Source: Diphasiastrum complanatum (taxonomy: Eukaryota > Streptophyta > Lycopodiopsida > Lycopodiales > Lycopodiaceae). From it: DNA of 64,000 nt. The stretch covers positions 7,583,676 to 7,647,675 of the forward strand of contig CM055097.1 of NCBI GenBank assembly GCA_029204225.1, written 5' to 3'. The notes below the pieces were generated by a model. It made no database searches and had not been told where the DNA came from. It saw only the letters and a list, made by a program, of their open reading frames with translations. A program made the translations under genes and the position numbers. Shown here in pieces: positions 38,901-46,970 of this stretch; within the stretch, counting starts at the first letter, position 1; each line of letters opens with the position of its first letter.

Positions 38901-38932
38901 GGGCCCTTTTTGGACTCAAAAAGGGCCTCTTC
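38901..38932 (+). repeat. Left terminal inverted repeat
   Basis: Starts GGGCCCTTTTTG, spacer GACT, then CAAAAAGGGCC, then TCTTC. Exact reverse complement of 46939-46970. The repeat is itself nearly palindromic. Beyond it, ACTAATTATAATTA and TGTTAATGA resemble the subterminal sequence at the other end. Confidence 0.95.
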
Positions 38933-39247
38933 ACTAATTATAATTAGTGTTAATGATGACACATGTCCCAATAAAATATTGACAACTAAGAGGGAATGGT
39001 CCATATGACATGGCAAATTCAATGGTGCATATTAAATCAAGTGTGGGCCCACAAAGTCCACCTCTAACATTAACACTACATTAACCCTAGATAAAGCAAT
39101 AACTATGCCTACAAGTTAACATCAACTAGCATGTCTATCTACTAGCAGCCTTATCCTAAGTGAGCCTAGTCCTTATTTCAAATTTTGAATGTTCACAAGC
39201 TTGTATCTCTCATCTCTCTCTCATTTTGTAGTCTCTCTCTAAACGAC

Positions 39248-39342
39248 CTCTCTCTCTCTCTCTCTCTCTCTCTCTCTCTCTCTCTCTCTCTCTCTCTCTC
39301 TCTCTCTCTCTCTCTCTCTCTCTCTCTCTCTCTCTCTCTCTC
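39248..39342. repeat. (TC)n microsatellite, about 95 bp
   Basis: Pure TC run ending 105 bp before the predicted start codon of gene A, in its probable 5' UTR or promoter. CT/GA tracts in this position can bind plant BPC factors; no evidence here beyond location. Confidence 0.97.
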
Positions 39343-39446
39343 ATTCTGTATACTCCACAAATATTCTATTTTTTTATTTTGGTTCACCTTATCTGAAGAT
39401 CTACACACTATTTCGCATATCCTACATTATCATTACATCATTTATT

Positions 39447-40806
39447 ATGGCCTCTACTCAATCAAGGAAGCCCAAGAATCAACTAGCTTCCATTGTTGCA
39501 CACATCAAAGATTCCAATGAGCATTGGGTGCCCCATACATCTTCAACTTTTGACTAGGTTTACATGCAACCATCGGGCAAAGGAACTCACAAGGTTGCAA
39601 AGAGGAAGCAAAACAACCAAGGCTACCATTGGAAAGGAAGGATCCACGAATTCAAGATCGACCAAAACGACGAATACCTTGCAAGTGTGCAACATGTATA
39701 CATGCGTCGAGATATTTTATTGGATGTGGCTATTGCTGATAGAACCATACAGTCACATTGTAGGTCTCACCTCTTTTATTCTTGTGTTAACTATTATGTT
39801 TGAATTATGATTATGTCATTGTAATGGATAATAATGTTGCATTAATGCCCGGTGCAGATGTCTTTCCTTCAAATAGCTTCGACTGGCAAAACGTGAAGTC
39901 CTTCACTGGAAAATTCTCCGCCATACATGCCAAATATGGAGAACTAATATATGGTGGGTTGGCATCCTCTGTCCTGATCAAAATGGGCATTTTCTTTTAC
40001 GATCACATGTACGAAGTTCCAAAAAAAAACTTTGGCCAAGGCAAATTAGCACCAATTTCTGAGCCTGCGATCAATTCTCACGAGTGGCCATATGTTGACC
40101 AACTGACTATTGAATTAACGAAGAGGCAACTTCTCAAAGAGATTACTGGTAATATGAAGCCAACATTCGGATCCAAACGAGTCTACACTAGCATCTCTGT
40201 GTCGATCACCATATTTGTTGCCATATTTAAGGTGGTCCCCTTTAGGAAAACAAACACGATGTGGGCATGGAAAGCAACAGAATCATCACTGTTGGATAAT
40301 ATATTTGTCACATGGGATTCAAAGGACATGGAGCATAAAGGAGATTTAATAAGGTGTAAGCTCTCTTGTGAAACAATGACCATAAGGTATCATATTTCAC
40401 GTCAAACATGCTCCTTAAGTTTCATCTATAGGCGATATAAGTTTGGTCATGGCTGATGGGACCCTCTGGATGCGGAGACGAATCAGCAAGAAGTGGAGAT
40501 ATCCATACATTTGCCCCATGATGAAATACGAAAAAATCATATAAATAAGGAGTGCAGTCTAGAAGATCTTCGGCATATGCTTGGATTGACTTTTGCTGAT
40601 GTGCCATTAGATTTTGTCTTCACTCGTAATGGACAAAATGTGAGTCCCTAATTTCCATCAGATTCCTGAATTTTAAATAGTAATGTTGAATAAATATAGG
40701 ATTATTAACTTTGTGTCTGGTTTTGCAGATACGGAGACGAGCCGAAAAAGATCATGAATGTGTTTCATTTTTACAAACAGGGACATTAGGAGTCCAATGG
40801 GAATAA
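39447..40806 (+). pseudogene. Transposon gene A, unknown protein
   Basis: Three exons: 39447-39759, 39858-40639, 40729-40806. Donors are GTAGGT and GTGAGT, acceptors GGTGCAG and TTTTGCAG. Lengths 313+782+78 nt give 391 codons with the frame kept at both junctions. In-frame stops occur at 39555 (TAG) and 40454 (TGA). The N-terminus is basic (MASTQSRKPKNQLAS), followed by HWKGRIHEFKIDQND, NSFDWQNVKSFTGKF, KYGELIYGGLASSVL and the C-terminal CSLEDLRHMLGLTFADV. No family recognised. DLRHMLGL is faintly like DLQHILGL in gene B. No TATA box seen. Confidence 0.65.
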
Positions 40807-41134
40807 AGGATTTAATCTAATGGAAAATAGAAAACACAATTAGTTGGTTGTGTTTTGACTCTATTCTAATATATTTGGTTACGTTTTGACTTTACTTTTG
40901 CGTTGTCACATTTTATATGCCTGTTACTACATTTGTGGATGTCCAAGGTTGAAACTTGTTAGGGTTTAAATCGTTTAGTGATATGCATTTTAATACTATT
41001 ACTGGTTTTCTTTCGAAGGTTTCCGCTAACTGGCAATTAGGATTTTTACTCATGAGCCTAGACAAGAACATACTATATTTGAAAAAGAGGCCAAAACTTT
41101 TATAGGGGCACTTACTAAAAATAAAACCCTTCAC

Positions 41135-41141
41135 TATATAA
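41135..41141 (+). promoter_or_regulatory. TATA box of H3-like gene
   Basis: TATATAA in context TCACTATATAAGGG, 115 bp before the first ATG. Gene B has a similar box at a similar distance. Confidence 0.6.
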
Positions 41142-44413: not shown

Positions 44414-44538
44414 TGTTATGCAACTAAGAACACTAATTGACCAGCAAACTAGTAGTCTAATTAAACAAGACAAGCTAAATTACGAGGAAAGAAATCTCAA
44501 CAAAGCAAGAAGTGACAACAAAATGAAAACCCCCACTC

Positions 44539-44545
44539 TTATATA
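44539..44545 (-). promoter_or_regulatory. TATA box of gene B
   Basis: Minus strand CTATATAAGAG, 126 bp upstream of the start codon at 44413. Confidence 0.55.
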
Positions 44546-44678
44546 GAGGGACGTGTTTCCAAAAATAGATATTATTATAAAACCAAATAAAACAATTTCT
44601 ATTTATAACAACAATTTAATTCGACAGTAATATTTATCACAAAGGAATATTTGAATTACAATTCAACATAAATTATTT

Positions 44679-46562
44679 CTATTCCATCTCATCAGTTTCC
44701 GTAGTTTCTCTAGCGCTGTTTTCCAAATGTTGGTGTCCTCGGCATCCATCTCTTTCCAACTCGGACTCTAGACATCCTCCATTCTTGATGCCTTGTTCTA
44801 GCATTAGAGGATTGCCATGTCGCAAAAATAATAATTTGTCCAGTATTCGTAATTCACCATGCATTGTGCAAAAATGGACTCTTTCGAGAGGAATGTTTAA
44901 CACACGACTCCAAGCTTTGTCTAGATTGTGCCTATTTGGTGCAAGACGTTGGTTGCAATTCAAAATACTTTTGTTCCGCCCAGATTCAAACATACAATAT
45001 ATACAAAAATTCTTTGCATTTTCACCAAGACCACAACCGTACATGCATTTCAAAGTCTTCAAATCAGCAGCTAGGTGCCATTCTACAGCAAAGCTTTCTC
45101 CTTCAACATTGAGCAATTTGCCTTCATTTTGTGCATGTATTATCTTAGATATACTACATTTTTCAAATAGCCACTCCAGTACGTCGTGAGACTCCTTAGG
45201 AACTTCAAATGCAACTATCCACCATATGTGATTTTCGGATTGCACGCTAAATTCTTTACAATAACTTCTGCCAAACTGTTGCAATTCATGATTCATCAAG
45301 GTGATTGTGACACGTTCAAGTTTACGCCCTTTTATGATTTATGCTTCGTCCAACTTAATAACAAATATAACTTTACCTCCGCAATCTGTAAAACGGAAAT
45401 TTCATTACAAAAACATATTAGTTGAAGAAAAGCATACAATTGAAAACCGAAATCCACAATAAATGTTCTTACCATTTGTTCTAACTTCGTAATGTCGGAT
45501 CATCATCGCTTGGACCTTTTCCAGATCTAAGAATATATTATTGCCTTGATGATAATGAAAACATGTCGGAGGTCCTTTCTTCTTATTGGTTACTGTAAAA
45601 GAATCCTCAATATGTTGAAACTCTCCTAATTCAGAGAGCAAAATCGAATTGCATTCTCGTTTGGCGGATTCAACAAGTTTATAAGTAGGTATAATTTGAT
45701 GGCATTTTAACCCATTTTTGTCAGAGCGTTTCATATACTTCTTCAAAGCTCTATACCCCTTGCGACTCACACCTCCTTGGTCACATGCGTACACCATCTC
45801 TTTAACATTCGGATTTGGCTTGAACTTGTCGACTAGCTTTTTTGCAATTCTCAAGCGAATTGAATCACTTGTTTCATCTTCCACAATCTTAATCAAATCT
45901 TTACCCTTCAAAAAATGTTTCATATATTTTTCGGCAATAAAATCTTTTCCAACCGTCTTTTTCAAGAACTCTTTTGTGTCTCTCATATGTCTTTTCCAGG
46001 CACCACCACCTGGTGCCGAAGCTTCTAGTTTGTGTCTCTTAGTGTTTTCATTTTCTACTTGCTGATCCATCGAGACTCCACGCTTTCGTTGTAAGCCATA
46101 TATTGTCCTCTGAAATATACTGACTGAAGCTTGCAATTCTTCAATATTTGCGACAGAACTGGCAAGCTCTATTTTCAAACCATTCATCTCCTGCTCCAAT
46201 TTCATATTTATTCCATGCAATGACTTTAAATTGTCATTCATACTCAATATATGAATGTTTACCGTATTTGCCAATGTTTCAGCTTGGATTCTTCGAGAAT
46301 CCATTGCTTGACAATAGCCAAGCAATCCATTCCGACCATCCCCAACGAACCTTAACAAACTATGTACATCAGAAAATTTAGGGGGAGCATCTACCAGTGG
46401 ATTATGAGGGTATAAATCACCTCTTACCTATAGGTCAATATGTTTTTTTCCTTCTAATCTCCAACAATGCATGTCATACGGATTTAAGTTAACACCCCAT
46501 GCAGCTTTGGTGGTCGCATAATCCTTCTCTAACTTCACATGTAAGTGATACTTGGTTGTCAT
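44679..46562 (-). pseudogene. Transposon transposase-like gene
   Basis: Two exons, 46562-45473 and 45385-44679, with a GT-AG intron of 87 bp (donor GTAAGAAC, acceptor CGTTTTACAG). 1090+707 nt gives 598 residues plus stop, frame intact across the splice. In-frame stops lie at 46428-46430 (TAG) and 45339-45341 (TAA). The N-terminus is MTTKYHLHVKLEK, followed by a coiled coil (SMNDNLKSLHGINMKLEQEM), KEMVYACDQGGVSRKGYRAL, then VIFVIKLDEA, KLERVTITLMNHEL, FAVEWHLAADLKTLKCMYGC, NFCIYCMFES (CxxC) and RVHFCTMHGELRILDKLL. Acidic residues next to the WHLAxDLK and C-x-x-C blocks recall transposase-like proteins of large animal and plant DNA elements, but I cannot assign a superfamily. As the only transposase candidate inside the repeats it is the likely mobility gene. 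Confidence 0.6.
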
Positions 46563-46938
46563 CTTGAAGATGTCGAATTTCCCAAAAGAATCTATGTAGA
46601 ACATTACAATATACCTTAATCAAATGGTGTCAAAGTTCAATGTGAACTAACCATGATATAAGCTTTATTAGGCATATACTAGTTTCCATCCCTAGGGTCC
46701 TATTGTAGTTAGGACAATGAAAGGTCGTCCTATACTAACCCTACTCTAGTTGTAATTTGTAACTTACCTATTAGTTGCCTATTATAGTCTATGCAAATAA
46801 CCTACAATATTCTATGAAAATGAGACCTACATTTAGGCCTTAACTCTTGCTCACCTTGTATGGTAACCCAAGGTAAAGGTGCCATGTAGGATTGATTAGC
46901 ACTAAATTAATTATGATTAGAAAACTTGTTTAGGCAAG

Positions 46939-46970
46939 GAAGAGGCCCTTTTTGAGTCCAAAAAGGGCCC
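46939..46970 (-). repeat. Right terminal inverted repeat
   Basis: Exact reverse complement of 38901-38932, followed by TA. Inside it the sequence CTTGCCTAAACAAG (small hairpin) separates the repeat from a subterminal region like that of the left end. Confidence 0.95.

Follow-up and report, generated by a model that had tools for sequence, protein, structure and literature searches.

The window analysed in this study, a 64,000-nucleotide stretch of the Diphasiastrum complanatum genome (C6:7583676-7647675 in a source genome of 1.74 Gb and 5,176 contigs), harbors a DNA transposon that carries a histone H3-like gene. An earlier sequence-only reading had assigned four genes to this element, and this assignment was supported: gene C and the H3-like gene lie on the forward strand, gene A and a transposase-like gene lie on the reverse strand, and all four were present again in related copies. 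The features of the window copy are as follows:

38896..38932, + strand: left terminal inverted repeat, AATTAGGGCCC in the window copy and CATTAGGGCCC in most copies
39447..40780, + strand: gene C, two or more exons (about 39447-39759 and from 39859 on; intron position judged by eye)
41134..41146, + strand: TATA-like box CACTATATAAGGG of the H3-like gene (position by eye)
41256..42474, + strand: histone H3-like gene; ATG at 41256, second ATG at 41268 before ARTKQTAR, stop at 42472-42474
42175..42471, + strand: H3 fold segment (about RKHRIAKW through RRERS)
42945..44413, - strand: gene A, several frames or exons; ATG at 44413
44682..46427, - strand: transposase-like gene, two or more exons; a TAA lies in frame at 45341-45339
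46939..46975, - strand: right terminal inverted repeat, ends GGGCCCTAATG

The element was identified, with high confidence, as a member of a DNA transposon family that is bounded by terminal inverted repeats and regularly includes an H3-type gene. The 32-bp inverted repeats (38901-38932 and 46939-46970) match exactly as reverse complements, as had been claimed, and with ATTA/TAAT added the exact match extends to 36 bp (38897-38932 and 46939-46974). The proposed 8,070-bp unit was indeed a bounded element, but its ends lie further out. In 13 independent insertions, the window included, TAAT stands outward of GGGCCC at 26/26 ends and the fifth base is G at 23/26, with no strong preference by eye beyond that base. 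Because these bases belong with the conserved ends, the element extends from about 38896 to 46975, or about 8,080 bp. Each end is itself an inverted repeat (38902-38927 and 46944-46969; GGCCCTTTTT, 6 nt, AAAAAGGGCC) and could form a hairpin.

The target duplications that the sequence-only reading had proposed to look for were not found: none of the 13 independent insertions has a 3-9 bp duplication at any offset from 0 to 7, so that such a duplication was rejected, and the 2-bp flank matches at offsets 0 and 2 are explained by the invariant ends. TA adjoins GGGCCC on both sides in 13/13 insertions; a TA duplication of the Tc1/mariner type was nevertheless rejected, because TAAT is invariant and, of the 22 empty-site matches that are full-length, 10 fall short of the query by exactly 10 nt, which would follow if all 10 nt were part of the element. 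This query was made of both window flanks joined with AATTA and TAATG retained (243 nt), and it gave a one-piece match at 37 other places; three more rows, set aside, are flanks belonging either to the window locus or to the near-copy of it on contig C3341. The 22 rows that span the whole query measured 233 nt (10 rows), 234 nt (3), 236 nt (1), 229 nt (2) and 228 nt (6). The commonest length fits the loss of the 10 end bases without duplication, and the spread is due to the retroelement copies being just 77-82% identical, with small indels of their own. Judged from match lengths at the empty sites, insertion appears to proceed without a detectable target-site duplication. The left-flank open reading frame (ORF) contains a Tf2-1-like SH3 domain (PF24626, E 1.2e-13), consistent with the integrase end of a Ty3/gypsy element. 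Since the joined flanks match retroelement copies elsewhere in one piece, the element was inserted as one piece, in agreement with the sequence-only reading. Also left of the element, a 203-aa open frame (37514-38125, - strand) had no Pfam match above the cut-off.

Further copies with the same ends proved abundant. The 31-bp end pattern, with up to two mismatches, occurs 871 + 854 times in the genome, and the reversed-pattern control gave 0. The pattern is far commoner than the H3-like copies, and therefore many of these ends are probably those of shorter derivatives. A search with the first 500 bp of the element yielded 53 matches from the 40 candidates scored out of 1,332. Twenty further 10-kb copies were taken by their left end, and three that had both flanks in common with another (L016/L010, L022/L014 and L028/L027) were dropped, leaving 17. 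Both ends fell within the stretch in 12 of these; the H3-fold segment was kept in 7/12 and was deleted or rearranged in 5/12. Linkage of the transposase and H3-like genes was seen within the fetched copies, and the repeats are neither unique to this locus nor never found around all four genes. In addition, of 15 H3-like loci taken from C1, C2 and, as far as 70.4 Mb, C3, six had an inward exact end within 10 kb, two of them both ends, and nine had none, against an average random-placement expectation of 0.06 (from the 100 listed exact ends). At the DNA level, the 40 candidates scored out of 337 for the H3-like gene were 94-100% identical, and 26 distinct copies differed by 5.2% on average. A copy on G000:C3341 (about 37515-42491), 100% identical across the H3 fold region and 99% in the right flank, probably represents the window locus, either as a haplotig or as a duplicate of it. 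Long family members measure about 8.7-9.0 kb. The window copy is internally deleted: about 0.8 kb common to many other copies, including the GMEKSH/GMEKGH piece, is absent from its transposase-like gene at about 44819-44822.

The sequence-only reading had attributed to the H3-like gene both the true H3 N-terminus and the H3 fold. Both do occur in one gene, but the window copy is broken by TAG codons at 41481 and 41499 and by a shift of frame in the A/T run 42239-42248, so that "encodes" is true of the family and not of this copy. The L050 gene is unbroken and gives 416 aa, reading MSEEMARTKQTARDPR...RRERN, and the open frame of L049, 439 aa long, contains AWTKQTAR and extends beyond the usual stop. 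These two were picked for long open frames; the tail start and fold end shared one open frame in 0/29 copies fetched otherwise (near-duplicates counted). The octet ARTKQTAR (H3 residues 1-8) is exact in 13/24 independent copies as well as in L050. In the remaining 11, one to three residues of the octet are altered, through changes that read mostly as C-to-T or G-to-A, many of them in CpG. The TATA-like box lies 123-124 bp upstream in 24/26 copies, among them the window copy and its near-duplicate. A start at the first ATG would put MSEE ahead of the octet; by start-codon context rules, the first ATG (TAACCAATGTC) appears to stand in a weak context and the second (GAGGAAATGGC) in a strong one. 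The tail is long and SR/Q/P-rich. Counted from the second Met, L050 has a lysine at 4 and then none before 94; tail lysines 9, 14, 18, 23 and 27 are not retained, and the protein is 416 aa long versus about 135 aa. Judged by sequence, the element protein is an H3 variant and not canonical H3.

The fold itself was readily recognized (PF00125, E 6.8e-29) and aligned without a gap to H3 36-134. Identity was 51/100 to H3, with no gap, versus 40/99 to the CENH3-like L051 in a single comparison, and the best PDB rows were H3. At 25 H3 positions that we take to be contact or signature sites, 17 residues are unchanged. With a plant H3 query, the 150 matches listed comprised 13 full-length canonical H3 (97-99%), 9 partial H3 (79-93%), 2 on C7 (the L051 variant) and 126 at 44-57%; the last group is defined by identity rather than by position within elements. 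The L051 type (G000:C7:61150700-61151500 and G000:C7:61421937) is a CENH3-like host H3 variant reading MARTKQIARPKS...WLRDIRRL-stop-KSTNLLIPKAHF, with one TAG in each of the two C7 places and a nearly H3-like tail start. Searches of other collections yielded little. A search for H3-like proteins by fold region returned 113 candidates and none at E 1e-3, an earlier search for such proteins gave 3 matches among 8,000 scored candidates, and viral contigs searched with P0001, L050 and the transposase held no relative. In NCBIfam, L050 matched an archaeal histone below the cut-off and P0029 had a match attributable to chance, and an Rfam scan gave 0 matches. P0001, a metagenome protein of 415 aa, has a long acidic, proline-rich N-terminal part followed at the C-terminus by an H3 fold (63/99 to H3); it lacks ARTKQTAR and is possibly another lengthened H3.

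The transposase core is predicted to fold like RAG1/Transib, with a catalytic core and an insertion domain. The model displays an RNase H-like core, two conserved D residues, a Cys/His pattern and a helical insertion domain, and its Foldseek match to the RAG1-type fold was weaker (E 2e-3). At the sequence level, a 28-protein profile run against PDB sequences gave three matches at E up to 10, none of them RAG1. The candidate third catalytic E lies in GMERSH of P0025 and P0029 and in GMEKGH of L012. A Ceratopteris protein is among the homologues. CAC-type ends were not found, as the ends read CATTAGGGCCC. MULE elements make duplications of 9 bp, and PIF-Harbinger and CACTA elements of 3 bp. The hAT duplication is 8 bp (in the available text of PMC6710886). 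Such duplications were seen in 0/13 insertions for the lengths and offsets given above, and hAT, MULE, PIF-Harbinger or CACTA transposase domains were not found by Pfam in the pieces scanned, which alone cannot exclude them.

For genes A and C, homology was rejected (BLASTP E 12 and 0.059), and the gene C piece scanned had no Pfam match. Gene C is broken by in-frame stops in the window; copies L012 and L025 lack those stops. A 45-nt inverted repeat (82%, 3-nt gap; 42723-42815) separates the converging H3-like gene and gene A, and a long CT microsatellite upstream of gene C (about 39250-39345) varies in length among copies.

For the H3-like protein we tentatively propose an anti-silencing role, which we hold at somewhat less than even confidence. 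Protection from silencing is favoured because tail residues 1-8 are kept and the tail lysines after K4 are gone. Translation would start mostly from the second ATG, which is better placed, giving a protein with ARTKQTAR at its front as in real H3. The variant might then pair with H4 and join nucleosomes on or near the element. Such nucleosomes would lack K9 and K27, hence would not be methylated there, and would still offer K4. Silencing marks could be blocked from spreading through them while K4 readers were still able to act, and the element might stay expressed or its ends stay open. K4-marked chromatin may also attract the transposase, as the RAG2 PHD finger does for RAG1. We infer the second-ATG start, H4 pairing, nucleosome entry, resistance to K9/K27 methylation and K4 reading from these features. 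Identity and mechanism together are, in our judgment, moderately well placed as the best explanation.

It is rather unlikely that the protein serves in the transposition machinery instead of in nucleosomes, either by holding the transposase complex at open chromatin through an octet bound to H3K4 readers or by binding the DNA ends. Retention of the tail at residues 1-8 only, the long SR/Q/P-rich linker, the predicted RAG1-like enzyme and the precedent of the RAG2 PHD finger (PMC8355894, available text) would suit this role; the entire H3 fold, however, is kept with its H4-side and DNA-side residues, beyond what a tether needs. Also improbable, and slightly more so, is a useless passenger, that is, a host H3 captured once by transduplication, drifted and amplified with the element. 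Synonymous and other variants among the copies are near the neutral expectation, as for dead copies of a burst, and selection inferred from among-copy variation was therefore rejected. Moreover, the unbroken tail-to-fold frame is missing from all 29 copies noted above, deletion derivatives without the fold exist, and the fungal captures were all inactivated by repeat-induced point mutation (RIP) in the available text of PMC6710886. Drift since a recent capture would not be expected, however, to yield about 49% divergence from H3 yet an ungapped fold, and the intact 416-aa frame of L050, the kept octet and the TATA-like box also speak against a passenger. A centromere-type (CENH3-like) histone steering insertions or segregation is very improbable, given the closer identity to H3 than to L051, the H3 structures as best PDB rows and the spread of copies over many contigs, even though LIPRAPF and WLQDIR resemble LIPKAHF and WLRDIR of L051.

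If the anti-silencing role is true, this would be a case of a mobile element countering host silencing with a histone of its own instead of an enzyme, and the element offers a natural test of H3 residues 1-8 acting without K9 and K27. The RAG1-like folds predicted among transposases would be extended to a plant-type genome, with unusual duplication-free insertion. The boldest version, a plant transposon superfamily of RAG1 descent that inserts without duplication and builds its own open chromatin from a silencing-proof H3 variant, which retains the K4 end alone, the part seen by RAG2-type readers, and lacks lysines at the sites of silencing methylation by the host, is speculative and doubtful. 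If true, RAG-type transposition would have been linked to H3K4 before the animal immune system arose, or the link would have been reinvented outside it.

Among the best-ranked literature matches, a scope outside which most subscription journals fall, neither a plant DNA transposon carrying an H3 gene nor a Transib/RAG-like element from a plant was described, so that the claim of the sequence-only reading that no such plant element is known was not contradicted. Fungal hAT cases are published. A hAT element of Pyrenophora tritici-repentis carries an H3L gene (PMC3538342, available text) and resembles the present element in its terminal inverted repeats, transposase, ORF of unknown function and many copies, and in an H3L protein with an altered tail that fully matches neither H3 nor CENH3. 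It differs in its fungal host, hAT transposase, forms of about 5.6 kb and 2.3 kb, 26 near-identical copies and expressed sequence tags, whereas the present element, of about 9 kb, resides in a plant-type genome and has a predicted RAG1-fold transposase, no target duplication and an H3-identical octet. In Pseudocercospora fijiensis, H3 was likewise multiplied to hundreds of copies within a hAT transposon; there, an ordinary H3 transcript was captured, with 8-bp duplications and RIP-inactivated copies (PMC6710886, available text), unlike the diverged, lengthened and duplication-free variant described here. The fungal hAT genes suggest that H3 cargo was taken up more than once. Transib and RAG-like elements (ProtoRAG, RAGL) share the RAG1-shape core and helical insertion domain predicted here; their 5-bp duplications and CAC heptamer ends, in the portions available of PMC7204232 and PMC8355894, have no counterpart in the present element. 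The RAG2 PHD finger of that system binds H3K4me3 (PMC8355894, same portion). Fungal TET/JBP transposons likewise carry cargo tied to host silencing chemistry, a dioxygenase in their case and a histone here (PMC12730594, available text). An H3-carrying DNA transposon was thus already known in fungi; what is new here is the host kingdom, together with a transposase of another type that is apparently undescribed.
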